Assembly: GCF_964355755.1 (NCBI RefSeq)
Contig: NC_092671.1
Coordinates: 38,767,304 to 38,831,303, forward strand
Length of the DNA stretch: 64,000 nt
Direction: 5' to 3'
DNA from: Antedon mediterranea
Taxonomy: Eukaryota > Echinodermata > Crinoidea > Comatulida > Antedonidae
In this document: positions 19,640 through 57,300 of the stretch, piece by piece
How positions within the stretch are numbered: the first letter of the stretch is position 1
How the letters are laid out: each line of letters opens with the position of its first letter
Notes under the pieces: generated by a model
Databases searched by the model: none
What the model was told of the DNA's origin: nothing
What the model saw: only the letters and a program-made list of their open reading frames with translations
Translations under genes and position numbers: made by a program

Positions 19640-20912
19640 CATGGATTAAAGAATAGAAGGATATGCATCGACGTGAGATCAAGGGTTCCTTGACTCTCGC
19701 CGACAGACTGCGGACCGCCCACAATGTTACAGTTTAATTAACCGCATGGTAACAACGAAACGGTCGCGTGCCTAATATATTGTTTACTGCACATGTGCAA
19801 CGACATTTAACCTTGTTGGCTACGCTTCTTTCGCGCGTTCTTTGGTTGCATGATGTTTGTAGATGGTCAACTATTGACTATGTTGGTTTCTGCCGTGATT
19901 GATCTACGCTAATGATTTTTTTATGATGATTAAAGTAGCATTTTATGACCTGTAGTAGCCCTACATCTGAGACAATAACTATTAGTTGTCTCATTTGTTG
20001 TAAAATTACAAGAATGCTAGCCTAGCTAGGCCTTGTACTAACTAGGCTAAACTGGGCTAGTAAACCCTATGATTTGCCGACATTGATACTGCCTAGGTAG
20101 GCCTAGGCTAATCTTAAATACTCACCGTTGTCTTACTTCTTGTGTGAATAATAATAGGTAGGCCTACTTCGTTTGTTCGTGATCAAGTTTGCCCTGCGTG
20201 TACTTTTCAAAACGACCGCTAGGTAACGAATCGCAACTATACATAGCCAGCCAATCCCGGATCAGGGATCGCTGTTTTCATTCAATTAGGCCCGGTGATG
20301 TGGATGACATAACCACTAGCCAATCACCAGGCACTACAGTTTAAATATAATCACATCGATAATTAAGGAGATTTATGAAGAAACCACTGCTTAGCCATAT
20401 ATTAAAAAACACGATTGGTGTATGTCTGAACACCGGCCACGCTAACAACATACATGGTCAAATGCATAATTTAATATTCTATAGATTAACGCAATTTTTA
20501 ATGACAGAAGATGGCAGGCAAATAATGATAATTCAAATATAAAAATTGCATATTTTATTAATATTACCAACTACTTAAAATTACCAGTCGTAAGAAAGTG
20601 AACTTTTCGTAGTCCGATTGTGATGAAACTAAAACAGAATTATTCAGCAATATATGTTTGTTATCAATTAATCATCGACGCAGACATGTCAATAGAACAT
20701 TCAGACTGCGCATACGATTTCTACATGGTTACGTTTTGGTCTCAAAAAATGTAACAGTTGATTCGCAGCGTTTTACAGAGGGCCGCGGTTAGAGACACGG
20801 AGTTCAATGAACGTGTTTGTTTGATTGGCAGCAGTGCTTTAGTATAGGCAAGCGCGTTGTAAAATCGTTTGATGTCACCGTCGATGCATATCCTTCTATT
20901 CTTTAATCCATG
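19640..20912. mobile_element. 1.27-kb transposon with perfect 34-bp terminal inverted repeats
   Basis: The left end catggattaaagaatagaag (19640 onward) is perfectly repeated in inverse orientation at 20879-20912. Flanks share gcttgat (19633-19639 and 20913-20919), consistent with a 7-8 bp target duplication. CA...TG ends suggest a hAT-type non-autonomous element. No transposase frame is visible inside. Its right half recurs at 13285-13640. It lies just upstream of GT31 gene 1. Confidence 0.85.
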
Positions 20913-20940
20913 GCTTGATTGATCATATCACGTAGGCCTT

Positions 20941-21112
20941 AAGCCTTGTCTACACTATCAAACTTTATGGGACAGAAAATGTGATGTGCCCATATATTAT
21001 TATGGACATGATGATGTCATATCACTACCATATTCAGGCATATCACTACCATATTTGAGCGCGTCAAACTTTTTGTTTGTCAAACTAGTGTAGACAGAGC
21101 TTTATATAATAA
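20941..21112. mobile_element. MITE, AAGCTCTGTCTACAC family
   Basis: Left end aagccttgtctacactatcaaac; right end caaactagtgtagacagagcttta, with the gatagt word of the right arm deleted. Follows the preceding transposon after about 30 bases. Confidence 0.85.
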
Positions 21113-21918
21113 CATGAATGGTGTAATGGTCGATCTATGAAGTAGTTTACAATCAATGTTGTTCATCAGAAAATGTATGTGTGTGAAAAAGCAGTTTATG
21201 CCGCTATACGCCCCTTCTCGCTCATAGGCCTATCAATGTCAGTAATCATTAAGGATGTTTTTTGTTCAATCATCTATTCATTTCACAACAAATCCATGAT
21301 CTATATGAAATCAGTGCAACTTTTGTGATGTTTGAGATTAACTATATATCATATGATAAAGTAAATCTAAGCAATTGTTTATGCCGCTAACTGACATTGA
21401 TAGGCCTCCTCCCACTCAACCAATGTTTGGTTTAATTATCTATTCACTTGACAACAAATATATAATCTATATGAAATAATTAAAACGCGTTTATGATTAC
21501 TAATAATTAAAAAAAAAACAACTTACAAAATCGAGTCATAACTTAACTATCATTTCTCAGCGAACTAAAACCGTCCTATGAAACTCGCCACTCCATTACT
21601 AGCATAACTAGCATACAACTTATTGATTAGGCTACTCTATTGAGTATGGCGGACACGTTACAAAACAATTATAGGTGTAATACTCTTTTCTAAATCTCAA
21701 TTCTATAGTATTTTTGTTATTATTGCACAAAATCGATCAATTGTTTTTCCACATGACTGCGCATGGATTGTAACCCAGTGTTTGAATACTCCATTTTTGG
21801 GGGGAAAAAAATAATGCAGAAAATTGTAACTTAAACGTACACATAGGCTAAACGTAATTTATTTTCTCAAATTGTTATTTTTTTCGCTGCGTTGACTAGT
21901 AAGGAGCCAAGATTTTTA
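21113..21918. other. No gene seen
   Basis: AT-rich spacer. A loosely repeated phrase (cagtttatgccgct..cctatcaatgtcag at about 21191 and gcaattgtttatgccgctaactg at about 21371) suggests an old duplication. Confidence 0.5.
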
Positions 21919-22437
21919 GCTGTCGATTAGTGGGAACCAAGCTTTATCAGTCGACTAGTGGGAACCAAGCTTTAGCAGTCGACTAGTGGGAACCAAGCTT
22001 TAGCAGTCGACTAGTGGGAACCAAGCTTTAGCAGTCGACTAGTGGAAACCAAGCTTTAGCAGTCGACTAGTGGGAACCAAGCTTTAGCAGTCGACTAGTG
22101 GGAACCAAGCTTTATCAGTCGACTAGTGGGAACCAAGCTTTAGCAGTCGACTAGTGGGAACCAAGCTTTAGCAGTCGACTAGTGGAAACCAAGCTTTACC
22201 CGTCGACTAGTGGGAACCAAGCTTTATAACTATCGACTAGTGGGAAGCAGGGTTTAGCTATAGACAAGTGGGAACCAACATTTAGCTTAGACTAGTGGGA
22301 ACCAAGCTTTAGCTGTTTTCGCTTTGTCGATTAGTGGGAACCGAGCTTTAACTGTTTTCGCTTTGTCGATTAGTGGGAACCAAGCTTTAGCTGTCAACTA
22401 GTGGGAACCAAGCTTTAGCTGTCGACTAGTGGGAAGA
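21919..22437. repeat. 28-bp satellite built from the end of a MITE
   Basis: About 18 tandem copies of tagtgggaaccaagcttta plus gcagtcgac (28 bases), nearly identical in the centre and degenerate towards the right, where gctgttttcgctttgtcg inserts appear. The conserved 20 bases are the right terminus of the GGTTCCCACTAG MITE family found elsewhere in the window. Confidence 0.95.
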
Positions 22438-22979
22438 TTATATATTTATAAAATTATTTTAAAATTGCAATTGTTGAACAATCATATTGCCATTTTCCCC
22501 AGATGTCCTTGTTTTTATTATCTTAGCCCTTTAGTAATAACATTTCTATTATCATTGACGCCATATTGATTAACACAACAATCCTTGTTCACAAGTCATG
22601 ATAGGCAAATCCCTTTATTGATTTCATTTAGTTTTTATAATACAAATAAACTTAAACTAAAAGTTAATGAAAGTAGGCACAAAAATGCACATACAATCTG
22701 TATATGTATGTTTTGGTTTTATTTAATTTTGGACTTTTCCATTTATGTGATCACTTTCATTTGTGTGTTCCTAAAAGTCTTTTATTTCCGAAATAGATAG
22801 ATACAATAGATGCAGTTAGTAAGTAGTGTTTATTTTATAAATATAATGCTAATTTCCTTTAATTATTTATCTGATAATTTTTATTTTATTTCAGTGAATT
22901 TCCCTCCCTATAAATTTTCATCTACCTAAAATAAAAATGGAATAATCCCAAGCGCAAACGTAGTAACGTAAAGGTTTTA

Positions 22980-23855
22980 TTTTTTTTTATATTTTTTTTT
23001 ATTTCATCATCACCCTACAGTGACCAAACGTCACCATTAACAGGGTTGAAAGTCGTAAAATATAACATATTATATACAAGCAAAAATCAATAGATAACAA
23101 GACAACATTTAAATATTACTGACATTAGACAAAACCTTGTGACGGAAACAAGCAAGGGAATCAAAAAAAATATCAACAGATCCATCAATTTTACATAGTG
23201 AGTGGTATAACTTAGGCAAACGATTATCAAAACCATTTTTAGTAATATTTACCCTCCCTCTTGATATAGAAAATAAAGCAGGATTACGCAATTGATATTG
23301 TGGAACAGAAATAGGAAAGTACACTTCAAAATTACCATGGAAAATTGAGTTCACAGCCTTAAAAAGAAAAATTAAATCAAATAACTTACGCCTACCCGCT
23401 AAATTAATAAGAACGTCTTTGCTAATAGAACCAAATTTACGCACATAAAATCGACAAAACTTGTTCTGTACACTTTGTAATCTAGAAGACTGGGCAAGAG
23501 AAATAGAGTTAAAAATAACACTGCAGAATTCAAGATTCGACCTAACTAAAGATTTGTATAAAATAACTAATGCCTTTTTATCGTTAATATGTCTGCAATG
23601 TCTCCAAAGAAAACCCAAAAGTCTATTGCATTTAGAGACTATAAAATCAATATGTTTACAGAAGGTTAATGAACTATCTAAAAAAATACCAAGGTCTTTG
23701 TGAACAGAGACTCTTTCAAGTATAATATTCTTAATATAAAAGTCAAAATAGATGGTTTTTTTCTTAAGAGTAAAAGCCATTATCAATTTAGAGGGCGCAA
23801 TTATATTAGTACCGAAGCTAATAGAATTGTAATGACCTTGAAACTGAATTAGCAT
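22980..23855 (-). mobile_element. 5'-truncated non-LTR retrotransposon (LINE), C-terminal RT region
   Basis: A 248-codon open frame (23109-23855, minus) reads as the C-terminal part of a LINE reverse transcriptase plus the region after it: VSVHKDLGIFLDSSLTF, then KCNRLLGFLWRH, LYKSLVRSNLEFCSVIF, LQSVQNKFCRF and an RGR..ITKNGFDNRLPKLYHSL-like end. The catalytic YxDD part, endonuclease and ORF1 are missing, so it is dead on arrival. An A-rich tail on the minus strand at about 22980-23010 marks the 3' end. It lies between GT31 genes 1 and 2. Confidence 0.85.
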
Positions 23856-24267
23856 GTGACAACTCGTATGTCTTATTCTATTTTAGGAACTTTCGTTATC
23901 AACATAAAGATTTGTTGAGCACTTTTTGTAAATTATTCGAATAGAAAACGTTAACAACGCAAGCTTTTTCGATAGAACAATCTCAACGCTCAAAATACTC
24001 CGTTAAATACCGTGAGTACGGTATACTAAACGGAAAAACTATACTCAACTGTAAAACTCTCAATCGGAATACGACAGTTATCACCATCAATATAAAATTA
24101 CTATGATAAGAAAGACTTTAAAAAAAAAAGTATTTTAATAATATACAGTAAAATGCATTAAGTCCCGTAAACTAATGTGTGTTGGAAGAGAAGAACTATG
24201 GTATTAATGTATTAGGCACAGTCTATATGATTTACATGGATCAGCATGATGTTGAATACACATAATG

Positions 24268-25587
24268 TTAGTGTAGGCCTAAGTAACTACAGAAGTTCTC
24301 TTTCATGCGCCACGCACTAACAATAGATTTTATCCTTGCGTCACTAATTCTACGTTCTACGAGAAATGTAAAATGCTTTCGTATTTGACATATACGACTC
24401 ATTACACCTATATTCTCTATACTGTACATATAGCTGTTACTGTGTTTTATTTCTATCTTTAACTTATATAGTATTAACCCCACGTAAACGTCTTCCCATG
24501 GCATAAAACGAACAAATGGCGCTGTCTGTAAAATGTTTGTGCTGACGTCAGACGACATGAGGTATGACGGTCCTGCAGCGTACGGCGCGTATGTTGACTC
24601 CGGGTACAATTCTTCAGGCGTATACCAACGTCTATACTTGTTCCGTACTGGTTGCGCAGACGTGTGATGCCCTTCGACGAACGAAGCGGTCGGAGATTCA
24701 ACGAGATGAGGTACCAACGAACGGTAGTTGACAAGTATATCACTGTCGATCTTCAACACAAATGTTGTATTTTGACAGAAATCTCGGATCCACTGAAATC
24801 CGAACAAAGTTTTTAAAGTTAGATTGAGATACGAATCTTCAAAATTTCCTTGCACAATATCTCCAAATATCTGCGATTCTTTTTCAGTTTCTTGTTGACG
24901 AGTTTCATTTCGTATTTTTCCCAGAAGAAAAATATGCTGAATTCGTTTACCATTCACAACTTTTTCTTGCCCCCAATATTCGCGAAGAATACGCCGCCAT
25001 TTTGTCTCTTTATGTTGAACTAAGACCATTGTTAAAATAAATACTTTATCGCCATTACAAGCATTTTTGTTTGCTATAATATAAGATACGTTGTAATTAT
25101 TAACTGGCTTGTCTGAGTATATTGGGATTGTCTTGGTAATTTTGACTCCTTTACCAACGCGCCGTATTATGTAAACATGGTTTTTGCTCCTTTTAATTCT
25201 AACACCGCTTTCTTTGAAATGTTCCACTTCTTGCAGTAAATTGTCAAATACTTCAAATGTGTCATTTTCTGTGATTTGTTTATTATTGAAATGTAGACTG
25301 CTTCGATTGTTGTTGGTGTTCTCTACTATGTTAACATGTTCAAGTTCGTTTCGTTCTAATTGTAGTCCTACTTCCCTGACAACTTCTTTATGCATTTTAA
25401 ACGTGGAACCATTAGAAGCTGCAAGTTCTGAACTGTTAGAATTATCCATGTTAGGTAATTTTCTACCAGTCCAGTCAACTTTCTTTTTATATAAATATTT
25501 CTCGTTCAGTCTCAGTAATTCTGTTATAGTGAATGTTAATATTACTAGTAAAACGATGTATTTCGAGTGTCGAAACAACTTTCTCAT
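24268..25587 (-). CDS. GT31 glycosyltransferase (beta-1,3-galactosyltransferase-like), gene 2
   Basis: Intact 439-aa paralogue of gene 1 in one coding exon. A signal anchor follows MRKLFRHSKY (IVLLVILTFTITELL), then a stem of about 140 residues with several sequons (NSS, NGS, NRS), then the GT31 domain: WRRILREYWGQE, IFLLGKIRNE, FGDIVQGNFEDSYLNLTLKT, VLKIDSDILVN (DSD metal site), APYAAGPSYLMS and RFMPWEDVYVG. The acceptor ttgttttacag on the minus strand about 47 bases upstream of the ATG indicates a non-coding first exon. Expected to sit in the Golgi and extend glycoprotein or glycolipid chains; donor and acceptor are unknown. The catalytic domain is very close to that of gene 3, so these two arose from the more recent duplication. 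Confidence 0.9.
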   Translation of the reverse strand: MRKLFRHSKYIVLLVILTFTITELLRLNEKYLYKKKVDWTGRKLPNMDNSNSSELAASNGSTFKMHKEVVREVGLQLERNELEHVNIVENTNNNRSSLHFNNKQITENDTFEVFDNLLQEVEHFKESGVRIKRSKNHVYIIRRVGKGVKITKTIPIYSDKPVNNYNVSYIIANKNACNGDKVFILTMVLVQHKETKWRRILREYWGQEKVVNGKRIQHIFLLGKIRNETRQQETEKESQIFGDIVQGNFEDSYLNLTLKTLFGFQWIRDFCQNTTFVLKIDSDILVNYRSLVPHLVESPTASFVEGHHTSAQPVRNKYRRWYTPEELYPESTYAPYAAGPSYLMSSDVSTNILQTAPFVRFMPWEDVYVGLILYKLKIEIKHSNSYMYSIENIGVMSRICQIRKHFTFLVERRISDARIKSIVSAWRMKENFCSYLGLH

Positions 25588-25675
25588 TTTAGATTTGCGT
25601 TTAAATAATTATCTATCTTTTAAAATTCAGTGACATCTGTAAAACAAGAAAATATACCTCCTTATAATTAATGTG

Positions 25676-25833
25676 TAAAACTCTACACTATCAAACTAGT
25701 TTGAAAAGTGTGACGTACCCAAATATGGTAGTGATATGCTAAAATATGGTAGTGATGTGACATCATAATGTCTATATATGGGCACATCACACTTTTTATC
25801 ACATAAAGTTCGATAGTGTAGACAAGGCTTTAA
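25676..25833. mobile_element. MITE, AAGCTCTGTCTACAC family
   Basis: Left arm trimmed to aactctacactatcaaactag, right arm gatagtgtagacaaggcttta. Two internal caaatatggtagtgat units. Begins about 90 bases upstream of the GT31 gene 2 start codon. Confidence 0.88.
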
Positions 25834-26531
25834 AATAACTCTATAACAACCGATATTCTTTTTCCATTTTATTTATGATTTATGACCCTCTTCGGGTATG
25901 AGATTTACAATTGAAAAGATACATTAAAGAGAACATTAACAAAACTCCTTATAAAACATTAAGGAGAAAATATATAATGAATAAATGCCGGAATAGAAGG
26001 AACGCACGTTATTGAACGCAGATAACACAATATAAAACGCAAATGTTCAGTTACGCGTTGTTCCCACTATTGCTCTGGATCGGAACGGACACATTTAAAT
26101 AAAAAGAACGATAAGCTAATTGTCCGGCCGCCGTTAACACATCAAATCTAAGTGAACTACATTACAATACTTAAATCTCATACCTCATGGTAACGTTCTT
26201 CTTAACCTTCGAGTTTACATCTCAAGTATAAAGTCAACCTATTTTCTGCAGTACTGGTACCAAATAAACAATTACTTCAATAATAAATACCTATTGAAAT
26301 GTATTGCCACGTTAGTTGGACATGACCTTAAAGCTATTGATCCTAATTAATAGCCGTTGAAACAATTGTCACGTTAATCACATATGACCATATTTATTGA
26401 TCGAAATTAATTTAGTTAAGAGAAATATTTTACAAAAACAATTTTAGGTGAAATCTCTTTGTATACGGATATGTTATTATAGTTGATCATGTCACTAAAA
26501 TCTATAGAATATCAATGCTACGTGCTAGGGT
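25834..26531. other. No gene seen
   Basis: Spacer upstream of GT31 gene 2. It may contain that gene's promoter and first untranslated exon, but nothing locates them. Confidence 0.5.
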
Positions 26532-26540
26532 TTCCGGACC

Positions 26541-26877
26541 GCGATATTTCTTTTCGTACATAAGTTGGGGACCCCTCGTGAAACGTCAGAAAATAAACAT
26601 GAATATTCATTAGTCATATATCCATAAGGTCTGACGTAAGAATTGAGCTAACTACAATTCGCTAATGCAAACGATTTCTGTCGAGCCGTCTGTGTAGTCG
26701 AGTGGATACGACTATGGAGTTTACATGTCGATGTATGGGATTCGAATCACATGAGCTACTTCTTTTACTTTATAGTGAGGAGAGATTATTTAGAGGCTTA
26801 GATTTAGTTATATTTAGGAAGTAGTTCGGCTATCTTTCACATGGCGTCCCCAACTTATGTACGAAAAAAAAAATCGC
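26541..26877. mobile_element. 337-bp MITE with 9-bp target-site duplication and an internal tRNA-like segment
   Basis: Terminal repeats gcgat...ttcgtacataagttgggga and the inverse tccccaacttatgtacgaa...atcgc. The flanks are perfect 9-bp repeats ttccggacc (26532-26540 and 26878-26886), as made by Mutator-like transposases. Inside, 26690-26760 resembles a tRNA-type pol III promoter (tagtcgagtggatacgac then gggattcgaatcac). Confidence 0.85.
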
Positions 26878-27142
26878 TTCCGGACCAGTGTGCTCTGGTA
26901 GAACCATGTTGACCAGTGAAACATTGAGTGTGTTTTCTTTTTCGTTGTTGACATATTTAGATAGAATTTACATAGAACAATCGTAGACCATATGCCAGCC
27001 ACTAAATGTATACAGAGTTAGGCATATGACAACATTTTCAACAACAACTCAGTGATGTATTGCTGATATTACTAAATAATGTGGAACAGTCTAATCATAA
27101 AATCTAGTAAATATAGAAGGCATGTAAACAACCGAATTAGGG

Positions 27143-27272
27143 TTAAGTTCCCACTTTAATGCAAACGCAAGAACGAATTATTTGGACCAATCACGACGCG
27201 ATGGCTCATTCGCGAACTGTCGCTTGTGATTGGTCAACCCTCTTTGCGTTGCATACAAGTGGAAAGTTCTTC
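27143..27272. mobile_element. MITE, GGTTCCCACTAG family, divergent
   Basis: Ends agttcccactttaatgc and gcatacaagtggaaagttct, with the internal gaccaatcacgacgcgatggc / cgcttgtgattggtcaa fold-back. Confidence 0.7.
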
Positions 27273-27570
27273 TGAGAATTTGCATGTATTTTTTGTCAGA
27301 TAGACAAAACATATTGTGATTGTGTCCAGGCGTAGGCCAGTAGCGTAACGTAGATACCCGAGGCCTCTGGTTTAGGAACCGTAGTGGCCCTCCCAACGCG
27401 GAGGCCTCGGGCTATTTTAGCCTTTTTCGACATATTTTAATGCCAATTTTCCTCTGGGCACTGTTCAGGGGCCCCATGAGCTCAGGGGCCCCTGGGTTTA
27501 GCCAGTGAGCGCTCATAGCCGTTACGCCACTGGCGTAGGCATATGCCTTAAAGGTGACTAACGTAAGTTA

Positions 27571-29124
27571 TTAAGATGGACCGCATACATCCTTTTCCAT
27601 CTTCCACGTACTGATAATAGTCTTCAGATGGTCCTTACTAATATCACGTTTTACAAGAAATGTAAAATGCTTTCGAACTTTACAAATTGACATTTCACTT
27701 TTTTCTGTTAACTTATATATATAACTGTTACTGTGTTTTATTTTTATATGTCGAGTTAATCTATTCAGTATTAGTCCTATATAAACATCTTCCCAGGGCA
27801 TAAAACGAACAAATGGCGCTGTTTTTAAAATGTTTGTGCTGACGTCAGACGACATTAGGTATGACGATCCAATAACATACGGCGCGTAGCTTGGCTCGGG
27901 GAACAATTCTTCCGGTGTGTACCACTTACTAGTGTTGTGTCGAAATGGTAGCGTAGAAACTATTTTACGACCTTCGACGAACGAAGTGGTCGGAGATTCA
28001 ACGAGATGAGGTACCAACGAACGGTAGTTGACGAGTATATCGCTGTCGATCTTCAACACAAATGTTGTATTTTGACAGAAATCTCGGATCCACTGAAATC
28101 CAAACAAAGTTTTTAAAGTTAGATTGAGATACGAATCTTCAAATTTTCCTTGCACAATATCCCCAAATATTTGCGATTCTTTATCAGTTTCCTTTTGACG
28201 AGTTTCATTTCTTATTTTTCCCAGGAGAAAGATATGCTGAATTCGTTTACCATTCACGACTGTATCTTGTCCCCAATATTCACGAAGAATACGCCGCCAT
28301 TTTGTCTCTTTATGTTGAACTAAGACCATTGTTAAAATAAATACTTTATCGCCATTACAAGCATTTTTGTTTGCTATAATATAAGATACATTGTAATTAT
28401 TAACTGGCTTGTCTGAGTATAATGGGATTGTTTTTGTAATTTTTGACCCATTGACCTGACGTCTTATTATGTACTAGTTCCGGTCATTTCTGCCGCGTCT
28501 AACTCTCACCGTGTTTTCTTTGAAACGTTCCATTAATCGAACTATGTCATCAAAATTTTCAGGTAAAGTTTTTTTGTTTTCTGTGATCGTTTTACTTTTT
28601 TTAATTTCTTTATTTTCTGAGATTGCTTTATTGTCTGTGATCGCTTTATTCTCTGTGATCGTTTTATTTTCCGAGATCGCTTTATTGTCTGTGATCGCTT
28701 TATTTTTTGTGCTCGCTTTATTTTTTGTGATCGCTTTATTTTTTGTGATCGCTTTATTCTCTGTGATCGTTTTATTTTCCGAGATCGCTTTATTGTCTGT
28801 GATCGCTTTATTTTTTGTGATCGTTTTAGTGGTGTTTACGTCTACATTATTGCTTCGCGTGGTGTTAATGTTTGATACATTAATGCCATTTACTTCATTT
28901 TGTTCCAAATCCCTCACAACTTCTTTATGAATCTGGAACGTGAAATCACCAGGCAGTTCTAAACTGTTAAAATTGCTTTCAAACACGTCGGATATTTTAT
29001 TCAAATTTCTACTTCTGTCGAATTTCTGTTCTTGTTTCTCGTTTAGTACCAGCATTGTTTCTATTAATAATTTGAATATAACCAAAACAATAAGGTATTT
29101 CGAGTATCGAATTATTTTTCTCAT
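27571..29124 (-). pseudogene. GT31 glycosyltransferase gene 3, interrupted by one in-frame stop
   Basis: Paralogue of gene 2, 518 codons in a single frame from the ATG at 29124 to the stop at 27571-27573, but a TAG at 28474-28476 splits it into 216 and 300 codons. The stop falls at the stem/catalytic-domain boundary, where gene 2 reads KNHVYIIRR and this copy reads NDRN, stop, YIIRR. Everything downstream (WRRILREYWGQD, IFLLGKIRNE, VLKIDSDILVN, RFMPWEDVYIG) is intact and close to gene 2. The N-terminus keeps the signal anchor (YLIVLVIFKLLIETMLVL). The stem has expanded into about 14 copies of a six-residue repeat (consensus ITxNKA), several containing an NKT sequon. A recent pseudogene, a polymorphic null allele, stop readthrough or an assembly error are all possible. 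Confidence 0.8.
28560..28830 (-). repeat. In-frame 18-bp coding repeat in the stem of GT31 gene 3
   Basis: Encodes ITKNKA/ITDNKA/ISENKT/ITENKA hexapeptides. A higher-order unit of three hexapeptides (ITDNKA, ISENKT, ITENKA) recurs, showing slippage-driven expansion. The equivalent stem in gene 2 has no such repeat. Confidence 0.92.
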
Positions 29125-29331
29125 TTTGAATTTTAGGGCTTTCAGTCAAATGTCACGCCAAGGAGTCCATTGCAAAGATCGTGTCTGAAAAAACAAATGC
29201 GTTAAATTATGATCCAAAGATGAGATCGACTAACCTTAGAAATTCCTATCTTCACACCGCAATGCTGCTATCACATGAAAACATTTTCATGAAACTCGTT
29301 CACAATTATGGCAAGTTCTTCTAAAGCTCTG

Positions 29332-40762: not shown

Positions 40763-43450
40763 TTATAGCTTATTTAATAATAACTTGGATATTTCACTAA
40801 TAATCTTTGGATGTGTCACGCATTGTAAAATCGTCTTTACATCGACATTCTGTTCGTTATTATGTCCAGCAATGTCCATTACTTCCTGCTTGATGTCTTT
40901 GGACATTTGACGTGGCACAATTTCTGCAATTACGCCGATCTCTCTGAAAAAATTCATACAATGTTTATTACTGGAGGCAGTATATCTTTTTGTCTTTACC
41001 TCCGAAACATCGCCTTCATCACTATGGATCAGTTTTCTTTTACGATGGCATTTTGCAGATTGGTCATCTTCTAATGACCGTCCAACAGCAGGGTTGTCCA
41101 TTGCATGACATCTTTGAGAGTAGCCAACATCTGTATTTTCAGAATCTTCATGTAATATCCTTTTTACCTTTGTCTTCTTAATATTGTTCATTATTTCGTT
41201 TATGTATTCCAAGTTGACATCCATTGAAACAATACTCTAGACAATGGAAAAACAAATTGTATTATTGAAGTGGAATGGAGTTGTGGCTTGGTGGTTATGA
41301 TGCTTGGCTGCCAATTCATGGGTTCAAGTCCTGTCATGTCAGGATTTTTTCTAATGACGATTTACAACTCCACTTCCATAGACTTGTAATAAGACTTTGT
41401 TTATGTACAGCATCTTGTGTATATGTTTGTCTTGTGAACAGGATTGCCACCTTTAAGAAGGATAGTGAATGAATTCGTTTATGGTTATCCTTGGCAATTT
41501 GTATAAATATATAACAAATAAACAAACGTATTATAAAATTGAATGCAAACTAAATATAAAAACAGAATTTGCATGTGCTATAAACAGCCATTTTGAATCA
41601 TGCTGGAAGACATGGTATTCAGTTTTCATCTATAGTGAAATGTAAATTAAGAACATTGGCATTTGTTGCATATTTTTTGCCCATTATATATACACAAAAC
41701 AAAAACACTCAAAACATGTCTTTTTAATCAAAACATATTTACAATTACAATATTTACGACGTTATATTTTACTACCTCTGTGGGATTAAGCCAGTCTCCA
41801 CTTTCTTGATCATTTTTTTCATAAAACCTGCTAAACACTGCCCTCGTGATGGCTTCTTGTAAACGACATTCATCGTCAACAGGCTTTAAAAAAAATATTC
41901 AGAAACACAATTTACAAAAGTGATTAATAGTGAAAATAATAAACCAAATATTGTTACTTACTAAGTTCATCCAGCAGTTGACACTAACACTCGTTTCTAA
42001 GGACTCTACGTAATGCCACCAATGGTGCGGGACAACCAGGATGTCACCCGGCTGAAGCGTCACGATATACGGTGTCGCTGACTGGAATAACGAGTGTTTC
42101 ACAAGGTCAGGGTTCATGATGTTGACTTCGCTAAAAACACTTGATTCTTCATACGGTATCCGTGTTGGGTATAGGAACTCGGTTTGATCCGGTGAGAACA
42201 GATACCATTTCTTTCTAGATAAAAAAAATTGAAAAAATGTACAATGTACACCTGTATTATGTAAATATGTGGTATTACAGAAAACTGACTAGTGTTATTT
42301 GTTGTACTCCTTTTTGTTATGTGCATTGTTTTGATGAGATGAATAAAGAGATTGATTGATTACATGAAGATTTAAGGAATTGTGATTCGTAGACGGCAAT
42401 TTTGTTAACGCACTTTCCAACTACTTGCAGCACCAAGTTGCAACCATACGAATCGTAATGACATGGTGTGTTGGCGCCCTCACTACCGATCCAGAGGGTG
42501 CTATCATAACCATCACGACCCTCAAATCCAAGAGTTGACCAACAAACCTCCTGTAAAGTAGAATATTTAAAAAGTAAACACTTTTTATTTGGAACAAATT
42601 TTGAGAATTAGGTACAATACCAATGATTTACAATTGTCTATACCATTTACAATCAACAAGCATATTAGTACTAGGCCTTTATAGTTCAATTATTTTTAGA
42701 TTATTTAACTATTATTTAGTTTTACTTTCAAAATATCTTGGTTTTCTGAAAACATCTCAGCCATATACTTATAATCAGCATAACACCAGTAGATCTCTGG
42801 GTTGTATTTCATCAGTGGATTGTCATCCCGCGATGTTTTGTTTGTTTGGTTTTGAGAGGACGATGGTGCTGATGCAGCACTTTCAGTCGATTCGCACCAT
42901 TCCATCAAGTTTGTCATGGTTGCCATTTCATATACGCATTCACCTTCCCATTGTGCTGTAAGAAGAACAAGAACATAAATTGGTTAAAATTAAACAGGAA
43001 ATGCGCAACATGTTCAACGAGTACACCGACTTTAAAAAATTTGAGAGAACCAGACTCGAGTCATACCAAATATCTGCAAATTCGTTATGTGTTGATACTG
43101 TTAGTGCACCCATTTGCCTTAACTGCTATCTCTGTTATTTGGTGGAGAGATACCTTTTTAGTTTTTTAAATCAAATAAAAGTGAAACTCCCTTAATTGGG
43201 TCCCCTGTGATTGTGAATATAAATTATAGATAGATATAGTGTCACTCTCAGTTTTAGTACCTTTATCTTTGTACCCTATTCTAATTTTGATCAACTTTTC
43301 TTTTAAAGACTCGCAAAACTTATGTAATCCCCATTTTGAGCAGGGCCAGTTTTTGGCACAGTCTTTTAAAACTACCGGGCTTTCTACATTCTCCTCAAGA
43401 AGAAATTTTGCAACACATCTCAACCTTGTAACTTCTTCCTCCACTTCCAT
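40763..43450 (-). CDS. HSPBAP1: HSPB1-associated protein 1 (JmjC-domain protein)
   Basis: Member of the JmjC 2-oxoglutarate/Fe(II) oxygenase-like family; the human protein binds the small heat-shock protein HSPB1, and its substrate is unsettled. Six exons in transcript order: 43261-43450, 42726-42955, 42414-42550, 41962-42214, 41776-41883, 40763-41236, all GT-AG and in phase, 463 aa. Conserved blocks include WCYADYKYMAEMF, STLWIGSEGANTPCHYDSYG with the iron ligands His171 and Asp173, KKKWYLFSPD, FLYPTRIPYEESSVF, and PHHWWHYVES with the probable third ligand His253. The C-terminus DVKTILQCVTHPKIISEI aligns with the end of human HSPBAP1. Exon 2 has a Ser/Gln/Asn-rich insert (SAASAPSSSQNQTNK) before the YADYKY block. 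It starts 150 bases from NDUFA8 on the opposite strand. Intron 5 carries a SINE. Confidence 0.93.
41270..41526 (+). mobile_element. tRNA-derived SINE in HSPBAP1 intron 5
   Basis: The A-box-like tggcttggtggttatgatg and B-box ggttcaagtcc lie at tRNA-like spacing, followed by a body ending atataacaaataaacaaac. The head alone does not make a proper cloverleaf. Confidence 0.65.
42230..42360 (+). mobile_element. Possible retroposon 3' end in HSPBAP1 intron 3
   Basis: The stretch ending tgaataaagagattgattga has a terminal attg repeat typical of LINE or SINE tails. No coding part is visible. Confidence 0.35.
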
Positions 43451-43600
43451 GTTTTGTCTACGTTTTTGTTGACAATCTCGTTTTGTTGAGCGCCCTCAAG
43501 CAATCCTGGGAATTTTTTAGAGGGCGCTTTTTTGGTCTGTCGATCGAAAAACTGGCCTAAAAAATTGTTCTTAAAAAATTGCATTAGTTTAGCGTTTATA
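43451..43600. promoter_or_regulatory. Bidirectional promoter between HSPBAP1 and NDUFA8
   Basis: Only 150 bases separate the two start codons. The interval contains the inverted pair agcgccctc (43489-43497) and gagggcgct (43520-43528), the most GC-rich part of the interval, and no TATA box. A shared TATA-less promoter is inferred from geometry. Confidence 0.75.
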
Positions 43601-45707
43601 ATGTCTACCCCAAATATTATTCATTTACCAAGTGATGAAGATTTAGATGTTCCAGTTGTGCCATTAACGTCGTCCGCTTTAAAAGCAGGAGCTCACCATT
43701 ATGCTCGCTATTGTGACAAACAAAATAAGGTAGGCTAGGGCTCACTCAAACTCACCGTGCCGTGGTGGTGTGACTCGACCGGCCTGAATCCGGCCTAGGC
43801 TTGGCTAGTAGGTAGAGCAGCCTAGGCTGTGAGGGTTAGACCTACAAGTCTGAAAAATAAGAGGCTAGTAACCCTCTAGCTAGATCAGGTTAGGTAGAGG
43901 CCAGTAGGCCTGTCACGATAAATATGGTCCGGGGCCAAAATCGGTCCGGCCGGACCAGTTTTGGCTCTAAAATTGTGGCCAAAAGCAGTCCGCCACTGCC
44001 AAAATCGGCCGGGCTTTTCTTCTGTCGATTTTAATTGAATTACTAGGCCTATGATGCTGTTGTTTATGGCTAGAAAAATATCCCATGATATATATTAGTA
44101 AGTTATCTTGTCGGATAAATACTATAGTATAAAATAAATGTATTTTATCTAAAAACATGACTTAGGTGTTCACTCATATTTCGGCCTGCCACACACTCAC
44201 ACGAACGGGTATGAGACGCTGATATTGCCAGCTAGATTTTATTTATGATTGAGGCCTTTTTCCTTCTTCAGCCTAATCAATATTGGATAATTGTTTTATA
44301 ATAATTGTATTGAATTGATATATTGATTGATTAACCATAAATAATTAATAAATTAAATTGTTTTTAACATCATGGGGAAACGAAGATGTTAAAAAAGAAC
44401 AAAATGGATTAAAAACAGGCAGAGATACATATTGTATACAAGAAGCCTAACAATTAGTACTAATTATTGATGAGTTACTACTAATAATGATAATAAAAAA
44501 AACAGGCTTAATTTATAATAATAAAATAACAAATAAAACCCCGTAGTTTTCAATATAATGACTAATCATGGCCTTTTTTTAATATACATTATGACTCATT
44601 TTGCGCACCATATATTTGTAAGACCGGACCATATTTGGCGGCCAAAAACAGTCCTACTGCCCGGACAGATTTTATCCAGGTCGGACCAATTTTGGCCGCC
44701 GGACAGGTTTTGGCAGCCATAAATGGTCCCCCGGACTGATTTTGGTGTGACAGGCCCAAGTAAGGCCCTCCCCTGAGTTAGTCCATTATTTTATTGTTTA
44801 TTTATAATAGCCTGTCTACTAGGCTAGGCCTTTATATAGGCCTAGGTTTATTTTATAGCCTAGAATAGGTAAATTGATAAATTTATAATTATTTTAGTTT
44901 ATATCATCTATAAATAAAGTATAATAAATATAATAATAATAATAAATAGACCATGCATGGCATGCCGATAGAAAAATCACACAATGCATCCTCCATGTTT
45001 TTACAATTTTTGTTTCAGGAGTTCAAATTATGTAAAGCAGAAGAAATGGATCCCCGCAAATGCTTGAATGAAGGCAAGGATGTGACAGTGTGCGCTTTTG
45101 ACTTCTTCCAACAGTTAAGGAAACATTGCAATGATTCGTTCACAGAATACTGGACGTGTCTTGACTACAGACAACAAAAACTTTACAAGTATGTTGAACT
45201 TTAATTTTGCTGCTTGAATATCTAGGCCTATATCTTTTTTTCAAGATTATTATAGGCTTAATTATAATGTATATATAATTTATTAATAATAATATTTTCT
45301 TCTTTATTAATACAATATTTGATCATTTACTAATAATAATGTCATTTGCTGTTTCTTTCAGATGTCGTCAAAAGCAAGCTGAGTTTGATAAATGTGTATT
45401 AGATGAACTTGGCTGGATTCGACCTAAGCTTGGGGAAATAAACACGGTTAGTTTGTGCTACATTTGTAAATGTTTTCACTTCAGTAAACATTCGCATGAA
45501 TATACGGGTTATGTGAAATGGTTAATCTGTACGAGTTGACTAATTCTAATTTATATTTACGCTGTTTTATAGGTAACAGTTCACAAGACCGATCGTCCAC
45601 TGCCTGTCCGTACGTTACGGCCAAAACCAGAACCCACCCCTGAAATTGAGATACCAGATAACCTACCTCCTTCAAAGCTTGGCTCCAAGTTTTTCTTCTT
45701 TTGGTAG
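43601..45707 (+). CDS. NDUFA8: NADH dehydrogenase (complex I) accessory subunit NDUFA8
   Basis: Accessory subunit on the intermembrane-space side of mitochondrial complex I, imported and oxidised by the MIA40 pathway. Four exons: 43601-43729, 45019-45188, 45362-45446, 45573-45707, all GT-AG and in phase, 172 aa, the same length as the human protein. All four CX9C motifs are present: [33 protein letters not shown] and [11 protein letters not shown]. Other landmarks are [23 protein letters not shown] and the terminal GSKFFFFW. There is no cleavable presequence, as expected for this family. The ATG at 43601 was chosen because it aligns with the family start. Intron 1 contains a transposon of about 850 bp. 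An AATAAA at 45905-45910 follows the stop by about 200 bases. Confidence 0.97.
43907..44755. mobile_element. 849-bp non-autonomous element with GGCCTGTCAC ends, NDUFA8 intron 1
   Basis: Left ggcctgtcacgataaatatg, right ggtgtgacaggcc. Next to both ends are repeated ggtccggnnggaccanttttgg phrases in mixed orientation. The interior is AT-rich without coding sequence. Flanks resemble each other (ccagta / caagta) but not perfectly. Confidence 0.7.
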
Positions 45708-45904
45708 AGTTCTTGAAACTAATCCATTTGAATAGAACTTTATATTAGAAGTAAGCCGATGTTTATTAAAAAAAGCAGAGGAAATGTTACTGCAGTGATG
45801 GAATGTTACTGCAGTGATCGAAAAAGTGTTTTCCAGAATAATAGATGATTTATTAAATGAAATATTTCAACAACTTAATTATAGAATTGGATTTTTGAAC
45901 ATCA

Positions 45905-45910: not shown

Positions 45911-46124
45911 ACAAAATGTTTGTGTGCAGGAGAGAATGTAAAATGTATTACAGAAGAACTATTGCATACTTTATTCAACTTACCTAACTATTGTGCCAAT
46001 TGCCCTAAACAATCATATTGAATGATTTAACAGTAATAAAGTGAGTTAAGTTGATGAAATGTTTGATTATTGTATTCCTTGGGGTTTTTTTCCAATGAGA
46101 ATACAGTACATACAACAATAACAA

Positions 46125-48769
46125 TTATGTTTCTGCACTAAAGAAATTTACAATTTTCTCGGCTGTTTCTGATGCTAGACTTGTATGATCCAGCAGTTGT
46201 TGTTTTGTAGCATTCACAATGTTTAAAAGACTACCGCAACCTTGCTGTAGAACAAAGCACTGTGAGCAGACAGTTAAGAACAAATACATAATATGTGTTT
46301 ACTCTATACTATTTTAATGTTTTATGTTCCGCTCAATCTGCCGGCTCTTTATTATGTATGGAATATACGTACATCAGTTGTACATAGAAGAAAAAATACG
46401 ATTGCTGTACGTATAACTAGGCGCTAAAAAAGGATATGATGATCCGTGAGACCAATGGCCGAGAGGCTTCTCAATATCATTGCATCATCTACGTGTCTCG
46501 TAGCAAGCGTATCTAACCTCTGTTTAAAAATTCCTGATGCATGCTTTCCTTTGGCCTGCAAGAATGCCATTGTTTGCCTTTTTAATAACATTTTAAGTTA
46601 CACTCTTTCTTGTTGAAGAGAGGTGTACTAATAAAGTAATACTTACTAAACCTGGCTGTATGCTAACTAACCTTTGCAATCATGGCCATTATTTTAGCTG
46701 TTTCACTATCACTATGTGAGGGTAGTATCTTCATCTTACTAGCAAAAACACTGGAAAGACAAAGTTCAAATATTTTTCAAGAAATCGCGAAATGCAATAT
46801 ATGTGCATATGATATGTTATAAATAACTGGTTACAAACACTCTATAAGATGATGATAACGCAATATATGCGCATATATTGCAATATTATCACATGATAAT
46901 TGCATTTTAAAAAGTGGATATTTTGGCCATTTAAAAAAAAAATTCCTGTACTATATAGCAAGGGATTTTTTTTCGGAAAATGGCCAAATTTCGACCTTTT
47001 TATTTTTCGACATAAATGGTTACTATACGTCTATAAGATGATTATAACGCAATATATGCGCATATATAGCAATATTATTGCATAATAACACTATTTTAAA
47101 AAGTGCTTATTTTGCCAATTTTTTGAAAAAATCCCTGTACTATTAGTAAGGGATTTTTTTGGAAAATGGCCAAATTTCAACCTTTTTATTTTTCGACAAA
47201 AATGGTTACTATACGTCTATAAGATGATTATAACGCAATATATGCGCATATATAGCAATATTATTGCATAATAACACTATTTTAAAAAGTAGATATTTTG
47301 GCCATTTTCGAACAAAATCCCTGTACTATAGTACAGGGATTTTTTCCAAAAATGACCAAATTTCGACCATTTTATTTTTCGAAATAAATAGTTGCAAACA
47401 CTCTATAAGATGACGATAACGCAATATTATTATTATTATATTATATATGCACATATATTGCAATATTATCGCATAAGTGGATTTTTTTTATATTACAGGG
47501 GTAATTAGTGGTTGTGCACATTACTATACCTTTAAACTTACCTGTTTTGTAAGGCAAACATGATAGACAATTCCCTCTGTTCATGCAGAGCAGATGACAG
47601 AATTAAGTAGCAGTTCTGATGACCACTTTGTAATTGCTTCAGCCTGTTAACAAAAACAAAACAAATATTAGTTCCAGCTCTTATCTCTTCAACGCATTGC
47701 CATATGATTGAGCAAATGCAACATCTGTGAAAGTTTTTGAAGCAAAAGTATTGATCAAATAAGGACTTTAATACCATTCTGGGCTACAAGGCATAATTCT
47801 GACTGTGGGTCACAAGAGGCAAATTAGCCTATGTAATATATACCCACACCCAACAAGCTTTTCCCTGCCCTTCCTCTGTTGATCTCCAGTCTCCAGTGTT
47901 CCGGCTCTGTTCAAGCCACTGGGTTGTCAAAGGCCACAGCCATGATATCAGTAGGTCAAAGGTCATGTCACCAACTTACACCAGTAATTAACTAAACCTG
48001 AATGGGTCTTTATGTTTAACTAATTTTCATTTGTGTAAAAGGTGTTATTGCTCTTGATTGCAGATTGCACACATTTATTTTCTCCGCTAAACAAAATCTC
48101 ACCTGCCAATCATCTGAAGTAAAAGGTCAACCTGTTGACCTGAATTAGGCTGTTGAGTGATAGTGCTGGCATCATCAGCTCTTATAAGTAAAAATGTGAC
48201 AGTTGAAAGTGGAAAGATGCAAGTATCCTTGGGTGTACTTTCTGAAACTTCAAATAAGAAATTCAATGTTGGTAAAATAATTTACCAACACAATCAACTC
48301 TCTATTATTTCTTACCATTAAAAACACCAATTAACCAGACATATAGCATAGGCAGCCCAAGCAAGGGAAAGCCTCCTCCTCTCTAACCATGTCCTAAACT
48401 AAGGCCTAACAGATACAAATGGTCAATAAATGCCTTTCATCATCATTCCAATATGGCTAGTTAGTTGTACTAGGTAGTGTTTAGGCCTAGGCTAGCCTAT
48501 AAAAGATCATAAGTAGGGACTCATTTTATCCGCTAGGCTACATACAGTAGGGCCTAAACTCTCTAGAAGTAGGCCTAGCCCTAGGTAGGCTAGAGGCTAG
48601 GCCTAGGCCTAGTACATCATTAGAGTTATTCTAGTATAGTAGACCTAGCCTAGCCTATTCATTCTATTTACTTACGTCTCACTTTATACTGTTTTTGTAA
48701 ACACCTAAAGATATCACAGTCAGCTAGGCTAGTATTGATAATAACAGGGTCAATGCTATGTTTTGCCAT
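46125..48769 (-). CDS. SPO16: SPO16 (C1orf146) meiotic crossover factor, XPF-like partner of SHOC1
   Basis: In mammals SPO16 pairs with SHOC1/ZIP2 in an XPF-ERCC1-like complex that stabilises meiotic recombination intermediates. Five exons in transcript order: 48676-48769, 48103-48241, 47542-47643, 46672-46750, 46125-46244, all GT-AG and in phase, 177 aa (human 180). It starts MAKHSIDPVIINTSLADCD. Diagnostic blocks against human SPO16 are IFPLSTVTFLLI (human IFSLSGVAFLLM), NCYLILSSALHEQRELSIMF (human [20 protein letters not shown]), and KMKILPSHSDSETAKIMAMI followed by AK (human [22 protein letters not shown]). The C-terminal TAEKIVNFFSAET would be the helix-hairpin region, more divergent. 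The assignment is by recall of the human sequence without a search. A structured satellite fills intron 3, and three CCAAT boxes lie upstream. The gene converges on NDUFA8. Confidence 0.82.
46820..47480. repeat. ~186-bp tandem repeat rich in palindromes, SPO16 intron 3
   Basis: Nearly four units starting tggttacaaacactctataa / tggttactatacgtctataa near 46829, 47019, 47203 and 47389. Each unit has two dyads: a 22-base perfect palindrome centred on tatgcgcata, and a ccctgtactatagtacaggg-type hairpin before a T run. Confidence 0.9.
48480..48640. repeat. TAGGCCTA-rich tract in SPO16 intron 1
   Basis: Clustered taggcctag, gctaggcct and ctagcctag words without a fixed period, like 31015-31450. Confidence 0.8.
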
Positions 48770-48878: not shown

Positions 48879-48964
48879 CACGTGGTACCATTACTCTGAT
48901 TGGTTAAAATAGTTAGACCTACGGTGTCATTTGATTGGTTAGAATTTTGGGCCTCTCTGATTGG
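48879..48964 (-). promoter_or_regulatory. SPO16 upstream region with three CCAAT boxes and an E-box
   Basis: On the minus strand, CCAAT occurs at 48960-48964, 48934-48938 and 48899-48903, each in an extended ATTGGTT/ATTGGTC context. A palindromic CACGTG is at 48879-48884, about 110 bases before the ATG. Spacing and orientation suit an NF-Y-driven TATA-less promoter. Confidence 0.6.
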
Positions 48965-49480: not shown

Positions 49481-49664
49481 AAGCTCTGTCTACACTATCA
49501 AACTAGTTTGACAAAAAAAGGTGTGATGACACCAAATATGGTAGTGATATTCACAAATATTGTAGTTGTATGACATCATCATGTCCATATAGGGGCACAT
49601 CACATTTTTTGTCAAACTAGTTTGACAGTGTCACATAAAGGTTTATCGTGTAGACAGAGCTTTA
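49481..49664. mobile_element. MITE, AAGCTCTGTCTACAC family
   Basis: Left aagctctgtctacactatca, right tcgtgtagacagagctttac. The right arm contains an extra caaactagtttgacagtgtc block, so the terminal region is partly duplicated. Confidence 0.88.
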
Positions 49665-49936
49665 CACACAAGATTTTAAAAAAGCCTTTTAATTCAAACC
49701 AATATAAAAAAATGGTTAAAATAACAAAATAATAAATTAAAGAAGGAAAATTAAACCTTCACAATCACTGACCTAACCATAATGTAAGTAACTCGCCAAC
49801 TGCAGGCACACAAGGTATTTCCATTTAAAATAAAATATATTGAAAACGAGGAACAAAATGGATGGAGGACGAACGGAGAAAACAACAATAGCGCTTATGG
49901 CTTAGGTTACACTTTTTCAACAATATGCTTCTCCCC

Positions 49937-50063
49937 TAAAGCTCTGTCTACACTATCAAACTATTTTGACAAAAATAGTGTGATGTGCCCAAATATGGTA
50001 GTGATATGACATGTCCATATATGGGCACATCACATAAAGTTTGATAGTGTAGACAGAGCTTAA
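49937..50063. mobile_element. MITE, AAGCTCTGTCTACAC family, compact copy
   Basis: Left taaagctctgtctacactat, right gatagtgtagacagagcttaa. One internal unit only; 127 bases in all. Confidence 0.9.
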
Positions 50064-50114
50064 GGGTATCCTCATATGTCAGTACTGTTAACTACAGCAC
50101 TACTCCTTCTGTCC

Positions 50115-51375: not shown

Positions 51376-54300
51376 TCAGTTCCAATCATTAGTTCTGTCA
51401 ACAGTATGTATATCATCTCTAATGGAAGCAATATCATCTTCAAATGATAAAATACCTCCGACAATTTCTACACCTCCTTCATCACTAAATTCATCCACAT
51501 CTACTGGTTGACCGTCATTATCGTCTCTAACCAATCCATTGTCATCAAAACACGAATTTGAATTTTGATTGGAATTAAAACTCATCTGATCGTCCGTATT
51601 CGATGACGCGTAAGCAACTAGATCGTTCTCGCTTGTGGTGGTGCTATTTTCTATCGATGTTTCGCGAGATTCGTCCTCATGTCGCACGGAATTCGTTCTG
51701 GGTGTTGGTCCTCCGTAATGATTTTCATTTATGCTTATTTCCCTATCGTCATCATCTGCGAGGCCTTGTGAAAATTTCAGGGTACCATTTAAAATGTCTT
51801 TAACCTGTAAATAGAAGAAATGTAATACTCAAAAAGTTTGAATTGTGCTAGTATCAAGCACATTCGAATGTGAAATTTGTACCCAAATTTGAAAAATATA
51901 ACAATGTAAATATTACCTACCTGTTTAAGACCAGCAATTGACAACAACAGGTCATCTTCTGTGCCATCTTTGTCATGTTTAAGTAGTTCCTCTTGCATTT
52001 GCACTACAAATGATAAATATTACCAATAATCATAGATAAGATCAACATGGAAAATAAGAATGGCAAATGTTAATTGAAAACATTTATAAAATACACGATA
52101 AATACTTGAAAATAAAAGAAAAAAATTTGCATTGTATTCGAGTTCTACACAAGAACATTCTTGTCAGATAAAAAAAAATTGATTTGCTAATAAAGAAATG
52201 ATTATTACTCGTTAAAAACTTACTTAAGTGAGCCTCCATCTTGGTTGCGCAATATCTACGTAGCGCCTGCATGTCATTTAATCGTCCTTGAAGGTGTCGT
52301 ACTTCCTGCTCCAGTTGATTATAATCCTGTAGGTCAAAGTTCAAATGAAATAATATTGTTTAATTAATCAATCGTTATTTTTCTTCATAAAACAGATAAA
52401 GATTGAGGACATAAAAAAGCCTGAAAATGAAGATCTGGGTCATAGTATTCTAATGTGTTTATACAGATGCCTTTAAAGCCCTGCCTACATTATCAAACTA
52501 GTTTGTCAAAAAAACAAATGTGCTTAAATATGGTATTGATATGCCCAAACATCATCATGTCCATATATAGGCACATTAAATGTGATAGTGTAGATTGATA
52601 GAGCTTAGAGTATGGTCATTATATCCAATACAAGATGTTTGGCAACTACATTGTATTACATAACATACTCACATCCTGAGAGTTGTTCTTCTTGTTCTTA
52701 GTTTTCAATGGTGGTGTGGACTTAGCCACAGGTGCAGGGCTCTCATCAACTGGTGTTCCGTCAGGAGTGAGTGTGCTCATTTGCGTCGGAGCACGGCTAA
52801 CAACTGCTCCTCCTTTTGAAGATGCAGTTTTAGCAGAGGGCAGCGGTCTGACAGTGACCGATATGCCATCAGATGCTCCACCGAGTGGGTGAGGTGAGGT
52901 GGTGCCTGAATTAGTGTAGATAAAAACAATTTTAAAAAAACAATTGCTATATGAGAAAGTTTAAACAGGGTGTTAAAATAATTTAGCAACTCCTTGGTTT
53001 CAATAAGGATCTTGAATAATGCAATCTGTGCCAACCACACACCTTCCCTGGACCCCACAACCCTCCCTGGCCCCTACAACCTTCCCTGGCCCCACCAACC
53101 CTCCCTGGCCCTAACAACCCTCCATGGTCCCCACAACCCTCTCTGTCACCACAACCCACCCTGACAACCCACACCCATCCCTGACCCCCACGCTCTTCCG
53201 TGACCCCAAACCACTCCCTGACCCCCACACCTCTCCCACAATAATACTCTACTTTTTAGTAAGTGTAATATGTTTACCTTCAGAGATGTCTGATGGGTCA
53301 CTGGTGGACTTCGGTACTTTCTTCTCGCCCACCCTGCCTTTAGCTGTTATACGTTTTAAACTATTAAAACCTGACGTCACAACAGCTGTTGTCTTATTTT
53401 TGATATTTTGAATCTGTCTTGAATTCTGGTTCCCTGCACGACTTGAAGTTTGAAGATTTGAAAGCATTTGAAACTGGTAGTTGGCTGGCCTTGCATATTT
53501 CTGAAAATGATGATAGTCAATCAATAACAAGGAATGTAAGAAAGAATAAATTGAAAAATAAATAAAAATAATTTAAAACTCACTGATGGATCGCGAAGAT
53601 GTAATGCTTTGTTGATCAGAAAATGTACGTCTCCGATTGGTGGAAACCTCATTAATAACGTCATACATTTAGCATAATCACTGGAAATTACTATAAAAAA
53701 TACAAAATAAATATGAATGAACAAAACTCATGAAAGAACACATACTGTTTGTGAACAAGATATTTGGGAGCTTTCGTTTTGCAATGACAGACATCATGCT
53801 AGTTCATTGTGCGCATGTGTAGATGAGTAGGATTGATGGTTTCTATGTCCAGACGAATGATGACACATTGATTGACCTTTTTACTATTTTCTACAAATTT
53901 TATTTATCACAAAAAAAAATGAAATCACATTTACTGTATTACACCTTATTATTCATGTCATTAATTCTGAAAAAAAAAAAGGTTAAAATTGAAAAAATTA
54001 AAATTAAAATTGAATACTCACATAATTCTCGTACGAGCACCAACATAGCTACAAATATATAATCAACTAAATCTAATGTTGCACTATCACTAAAAATGGC
54101 ATCCCATAATACTAACAGGTCTTGAAGTATAACCTCACGTCCAAAGAGTAACCGTACCCACCGTCTACCAAATAAAATAAATAAATATGTTAATATATTC
54201 CAAGAAGTTCAAAAAAGTTAATTTCTTTGTTGGAAAGAAATGTTTAGGTCTTAAATCATAGGCAGCTATGAAGGGCCGAGCTATGAAGGGCCAAGCTATG

Positions 54301-57300
54301 AAAGGCCGAGCTATGAAGGGCCAAGCTATGAAGGGTCAAGCTATGTAGGATCAAGCTATGAAGGACCAAGCTATGAGCGGTCAAGCTATGATGGGTAAAG
54401 CTATGAACGGTCAAGCTATGTAGGGTCAATCTACGAAGGGTCAAGCTACGAAGGGCCAAGCTACGAAGGGCCAAGCTACAAAGGTCCAAGCTACAAAGGG
54501 CCAAGCTACGAAGGGCCGAGCTACGAAGGGCCGAGCTACGAAGGGTCGAGCTACGAAGGGTCGAGCTACGAAGGGTCGAGCTACGAAGGGTCGAGCTACG
54601 AAGGGTCAAGCTATGAAGGGTCAAGCTACGAAGGGCCAAGCTACGAAGGGCCAAGCTACGAAGGGCCAAGCTACGAAGGGTCCAGCTACGAAGGGTCCAG
54701 CTACGAAGGGTCGAGCTACGAAGGGTCGAGCTATGAAGGGTCGAGCTATGAAGGGTCGAGCTATGAAGGGTCAAGCTATGAAGGGTCAAGCTATGAAGGG
54801 TCAAGCTATGAAGGGTCAAGCTATGAAAGGTCAAGCTATAAAGGGTCCAGCTATGAAGTATCAAGTAAGCAAGTTATATATATTGTTTAAATATGTATAT
54901 ATCTGGTATTATGAAAAGCTTCATTAAATGAAATTTACTGCTTCCACTAAATTTTTTCCAATATATACAGTACATTTTTTGAAGTTTTTTGTACACTATA
55001 TCATCAAAAAGCTAATATAAATATAGATCATGTTCCAAATATGAGCACTGTTTCAATAATTTGACAGTATGATTTATATATAATTTACACAGTCCTACAC
55101 AACACAATTGATTTTTATATATAAATTATATACTTTATTTTATATTATTAAATCTAAATGCAAATTACTGAAAAAATGACAATGCTGTGGGTATCAGTGG
55201 CTGGATCTCAATGGAGATACAAAATAAAATAAGCACTGAAAAAATGACAATGCTGTGGGTATCAGTGGCTGGATCTCAATGGAGATACAAAATAAAAGCA
55301 AAAAGCTAAATCAAAGCGAGAAGTAAAACAGCCAGAAAAGTTAGCAGAGCTTTCGGGCAACACTAGCCCTTCATCAGTGCAAGTGCAGTGCTTTATTTTA
55401 TATTATATTATTTTACTTACATGCCATATATCTGAGGTTTAATATCAAGTCGATTTAGATGTTGATACAACTGTACATCTTGGCCCTTAAGGATCACTTC
55501 CTGTATTCTTGTTAAACGTAGAACAATAGGGGTTGACGGTGCATACTCTTCAGGTGTTTTGAAAAGTGGCTTGTCAAACTTGTCCCTAGCTAGAAATTTT
55601 CTATAATCTTCTCGTCCATGGCGATAACATGGCTCCATTGTTTCCATTAATTGTGTAAACATACAACTGAAATAAAAAAGTATATTTTATACATTTTTTA
55701 AACATTTTTTTTCTCGTCTTTTCTTTTAATAATCAATAATTAAACATTCTGCTGACCAATGGCAATATTATTCTGCTGACCAATGGCAATATTATTCTGC
55801 TGACCAATGCTAATCATTATTCTGCTGACCAATGCCAATATTATTCTGCTGACCAATGTCAATCATTATTCTGCAGACCAATGGCAATCATTATTCTGCT
55901 GACCAATGGCAATATTATGCTGCTGACCAATGTCAATCATTATTCTGCTGACCAATGTCGATCATTGTTCTGCTGACCAGTGTCGATCATTATTCTGCTG
56001 ACCAATGCTGATCATTAATTACTTACTATGCATCATGTTCTAAGTAAGTTGGATCTAATACTTCAGTGACGTAATCACTATAAGAAAAAAAAAACTGGTT
56101 ATCTAACAACAATAATATCACATATTTTTTATTTATATTATAAAATTTTATTTGTGTAAATATTAGTGAGTTATGCAAAGAAATAACAGAATTTGAAAAA
56201 TGTAAAATCAATCAATGGTTAACAATTTCATTAAAAAAAATATAAATCTTGTTTATTGTATAATTTGTTAATTGATGATTAGTATTATTTTGCCAGCGGA
56301 TTGTCAATGTCTGTCACTTGTCCTAACAAACATACTGTACATTCTCTGTAAAACATTTTCATATTATGTCATCTAATTGGAACAACAGAATGAGAAATGC
56401 TCACTATACACTAATACACTATACCTACCAGTATTTCTATTTAAACAAATTTCTGTTTAGCTCTGTCTACACTATCACACTAGTTTGATAAAAAAAAAAG
56501 TGTGATGTACCCAAATATGGTAGTGATATCACCAAATATGGTAGTTATATGACATCATCCTGTCCATATATAGGAACATCACATTTTGTCACATAAAGTT
56601 TGATAGTGTAGCTTTACATAAATGATTACATCACACATCAAACTGAGCTATATTTTGAACTACAATTTATAATACTCTTATACCTTATACCTTATACCTA
56701 TCTATTATAGTTTATAGGAGGACCTATTTCTGCTACAAAGAAGTACACACCAATCGTAAATTTTAGTATATTTTGTGAACTGAACTTGTACAGTTTTATA
56801 GATTTAACACCCTCTAGTAAACAACACTACAAACATACATGTCACACAAAATATTCTTTATAACAACCCACACTGAAAATTACTATCAAATTATAAAATG
56901 GATGTTGTGAGATTTTAGATAGAAAAGTAATCAGACAAATAGGGTTAGTAGTTGAAAAATAAGAAATATTTGTAGTAAATAAATGTAAAAAATCGATAGA
57001 AAATGTAAGGCATGAGCTATATTAATATCATGCATATTGTAAACTTTCAACAGAATTATTACCTAGTATTTTATTTAATAGTAGATAATTAAGACTATGG
57101 TCGAACCCTAGGGACTCAGGGAATACTTTCCTGTGAACAAAATGAGGGCAATATATTTATTAAAGCTCTGTCTACACTAAAAAACTTTATGTGAAGAAGA
57201 AATGTGATGTGTCCATTGACATGATGATGTCATATCACTACCAAATTTGGGCACATTACACCTATTTGTCAAACTAATTAGATAGTGTAGACAGAGCTTA

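Follow-up and report, generated by a model that had tools for sequence, protein, structure and literature searches.

The locus at 46125-48769 (minus strand) of the window, the 64-kb stretch of Antedon mediterranea DNA that was analysed, raises the question of whether five small exons there encode an orthologue of the meiotic protein SPO16 (C1orf146), as the initial annotation had proposed. Inspection of the sequence at the four intron junctions (48676/48241, 48103/47643, 47542/46750 and 46672/46244) showed that all of them are GT-AG. The exons measure 94, 139, 102, 79 and 120 nt, the last including the stop codon, and so agree with the range of 79-139 bases given earlier. Joined in phase as had been claimed, they give 534 nt that encode 177 amino acids followed by TAA, with no internal stop. 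Translation begins at an ATG at 48769-48767, and an in-frame TAG lies 8 codons 5′ of it, at 48793. The gene had also been described as hidden, a word that would fit any animal gene rich in introns and made of small exons.

The borders of the model were examined by combining other GT and AG sites lying up to 15 bases from the junctions, and 30 of the 3072 combinations stay open in frame. The 12 of these 30 variants that were listed differ at no place other than the junction of exons 1 and 2 and the margins of exons 4 and 5. The core of the protein is therefore firm, and a few residues near these places are uncertain. The least certain border is the exon 1 donor. A motif scan of the flanks found three CCAAT motifs 5′ of the start (48899-48964, minus strand; at 48964, 48938 and 48903), which could possibly mark the SPO16 promoter. 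The same scan placed the closest AATAAA 3′ of the stop at 45970-45975 (minus strand), a possible polyadenylation signal for the gene.

When the joined protein was searched against Pfam, residues 9-144 matched PF15162 (Protein SPO16 homolog) with an E-value of 1.3e-24 and a score of 87.1 bits, ahead of any other family and spanning 128 of the 162 profile positions. The only other Pfam family to match with an E-value up to 10 was HHH_2 (PF12826), weakly and at the C-terminus; on exon 5 alone (46125-46244, minus strand, with an AG border and the stop codon) it covers profile positions 23-58 at E = 0.0022, scoring 18.6 bits against a curated cut-off of 27. Likeness to mammalian SPO16/C1orf146 lies in the PF15162 match and in a putative helix-hairpin-helix-like C-terminus; some divergence in sequence would be expected of a non-vertebrate protein. 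The initial annotation had pointed to blocks shared with human SPO16, and we judged this likeness through the family profile alone. It had also called the protein divergent, but 87 bits stands 60 bits above the curated PF15162 cut-off of 27 bits, and the protein is for this reason not unusually divergent from the family as the profile models it.

Since exon chains can be picked by eye to suit a family, we also sought support independent of the splicing. The PF15162 match of the joined protein begins in exon 1 (48676-48769, minus strand), which runs from the ATG to a GT donor. Each of the next three exons, all on the minus strand with AG/GT borders, matches the profile when scanned singly, and the matches are collinear with the profile order: exon 2 (48103-48241) at positions 38-62 with E = 0.079, exon 3 (47542-47643) at positions 74-101 with E = 3.1e-6, and exon 4 (46672-46750) at positions 104-128 with E = 0.013. 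Exon 3 holds the most conserved block, LILSSALHEQRELSIMFALQN. Run against all six frames of the genome (18 contigs, 354 Mb), PF15162 found a single match, which was exon 3 of this gene (E = 2.1e-5).

These results bear directly on whether there is a gene here at all. Small exons joined by eye can yield open frames by chance, and the five exons might have been nothing more than such a chain. That reading is refuted by exon 3, which is found alone in a search of 354 Mb, and by the separate and ordered matches of exons 2-4. As a control, the protein was written backwards by hand, with one letter departing from the true reverse, and this sequence had no match to SPO16. That SPO16 here is a decayed copy, or one that is not expressed, is a different matter, in that the family would be right and the gene dead, but we consider this very improbable given that the five-exon frame is intact and its splice sites are canonical. 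No second PF15162 match was found in the genome, and a functional copy would therefore need to be absent from the assembly or to have been missed by the search.

Another non-catalytic partner of the ERCC1/XPF superfamily, such as ERCC1, FAAP24 or EME1, could in principle resemble SPO16 by chance. The fold family is shared, a C-terminal HHH_2 match is common to all of these proteins, and ERCC1 (Rad10, PF03834) has both superfamily and domain layout in common with the protein described here. On the other hand, the match to PF15162 at 1e-24 comes with no match to Rad10 or any other ERCC4-family profile in Pfam, and Rad10 searched against the protein gave nothing with an E-value up to 10. The genome also has its own ERCC1, as the Rad10 profile matches two exons of a separate gene on contig C1. 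A misread ERCC1 is thereby ruled out, and the wider reading of a superfamily relative is nearly refuted. We put the probability that the locus is a single-copy orthologue of SPO16 at about 95%. The identification made in the initial annotation holds up on the PF15162 match with no competing family, and on the finding that the genome also has SHOC1 and TEX11/ZIP4.

The search for SHOC1 that had been suggested as a check was made with PF17825 (DUF5587), which we take to be the SHOC1 (C9orf84) family. A profile search of the genome with PF17825 gave matches at two places on contig C6, 1.7 kb apart. Six exons joined from this region encode 294 amino acids that match the SHOC1 family with an E-value of 2e-29, the best stretch being profile positions 918-1100 of 1449. 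The joining was done by eye, with the fourth exon made to begin at a nearby acceptor so that the frame is kept. In mouse SHOC1 the XPF-like and helix-hairpin-helix domains are residues 925-1156 (PMC6155065), and by this comparison the stretch matched on C6 falls within the part expected to bind SPO16. For the SPO22/ZIP4 (TEX11) profile, single exons match only weakly, but frames chained on contig C7 match the SPO22/ZIP4 domain with an E-value of 2.1e-19; this chain was also joined by eye and its borders are rough. A further weak SPO22 match, at 29.9 Mb on C6, was set aside, as the frames there resemble by eye the alpha subunit of prolyl 4-hydroxylase. The ZZS set is thus complete in this genome, with genes for SPO16, SHOC1 and TEX11/ZIP4 all present.

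Neither ERK nor GD occurs anywhere in the 177 residues of the SPO16 protein, and it thus lacks the XPF-type nuclease active-site motif (GD...ERK). We predict that an ERCC1/XPF-like central domain lacking the nuclease motif precedes a helix-hairpin-helix region at the C-terminus. A search of solved structures by sequence, with E-values up to 10, found no match to the protein, yeast Spo16 included, and in this it differs at the sequence level from the yeast protein, whose complex with Zip2 has been solved (PDB 6BZG, cited in PMC11377751). The likeness to yeast Spo16 lies instead in the predicted role as the ERCC1-like member of a ZZS complex, in a genome that also carries Zip2/SHOC1 and Zip4/TEX11 genes. 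Arabidopsis PTD, a partner of SHOC1, presumably has the same role as SPO16 here (PMC6155065).

In the yeast complex, which prefers branched DNA and has no nuclease activity, Zip2 holds Spo16 through its C-terminal XPF-like domain and Zip4 through its N-terminus (PMC6155065; PMC13245411). Mouse SHOC1-SPO16, along with MSH4-MSH5, stabilises early recombination intermediates (PMC13245411). Reasoning from the yeast Zip2-Spo16 and mouse SHOC1-SPO16 complexes, we would expect the Antedon mediterranea protein to pair with SHOC1 in the latter's XPF-like C-terminal half, and the heterodimer to bind and stabilise D-loops and other branched recombination intermediates. Together with TEX11/ZIP4 it would then favour class I crossovers, with SPO16 presumably expressed in the germ line. 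On this analogy the protein would most likely serve SHOC1 as a nuclease-dead, ERCC1-like partner and stabilise branched intermediates of crossover formation. A 2026 study found no interaction between human SHOC1 and C1orf146 in assays that detected one for the mouse pair (PMC13245411), and the SHOC1-SPO16 interaction is therefore not to be assumed in a new species. This same difference between human and mouse is why interface prediction matters, and having SPO16, SHOC1 and TEX11 together from a non-vertebrate is useful for it.

The initial annotation had further suggested that the locus widens the range over which the SHOC1-SPO16 module is known. This is not supported, as the pair is already documented in yeast, plants and mammals (PMC6155065; PMC13245411), and an echinoderm SPO16 is for that reason to be expected. 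What we describe is most likely an ordinary single-copy SPO16, the expected gene for an echinoderm. Two tektin exons of this genome score much higher against the tektins of 8snb, a sea urchin sperm axoneme, than against those of mammals (175 versus 136 bits and 295 versus 157 bits), which fits an echinoderm or near relative. A COX1 search of the assembly yielded no mitochondrial sequence. In sea urchins and sea stars, SPO16 homologues already appear under that name in pipeline annotation. No paper on invertebrate SPO16 was found in the literature searched, which is weak evidence given that the main SPO16 papers lie outside that scope. We think it doubtful that SPO16, SHOC1 and TEX11 make up the first documented complete ZZS set in an echinoderm-like genome. 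If they do, the set could be used to ask which components of the crossover module were already present in the deuterostome ancestor, though as an extra data point and not a new mechanism. SPO16 is a small meiotic protein that annotation easily overlooks, and the locus also supplies a clean model of its gene.

The genes beside SPO16 were also examined. NDUFA8, a complex I subunit, lies tail-to-tail with it on the plus strand (45000-45710), and its joined exons match mammalian NDUFA8 with an E-value of 2.9e-48. Beyond this, on the minus strand at 41899-43495, is a JmjC/cupin-8 gene (Cupin_8, E = 1.3e-22) whose closest solved structures are FIH and JMJD5, and which is possibly HSPBAP1. Neither gene is known to be a neighbour of human C1orf146, and synteny accordingly gives no support to the SPO16 assignment.

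Several repeats were observed in and around these genes. Rfam families gave no match within the 64-kb window. Intron 3 of SPO16 contains a tandem array (46841-47427) of a 186-bp unit in 3.1 copies with 87% matches and an internal palindrome-like stretch. A pair of short elements at 49481-50077, with the inverted ends AAGCTCTGTCTACACTATCAAACT, resembles a miniature inverted-repeat transposon, and a comparable end is also present within an intron of SHOC1 on C6. Beside the SHOC1 exons (C6:6429874-6431349) a 126-bp unit is repeated in tandem about 11 times, with an open frame of 492 amino acids. A short-unit tandem repeat at 54256-54927 has three frames open, with LHSLT, SYEGS and KGQAT repeats, and is probably non-coding. 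Farther off in the window, at 18061-29145, stands a tandem family of genes resembling beta-1,3-galactosyltransferases, whose frames are long and unbroken, and a frame adjoining one of these copies (28474-29145) is rich in KNKAIT/ENKTIT repeat units.
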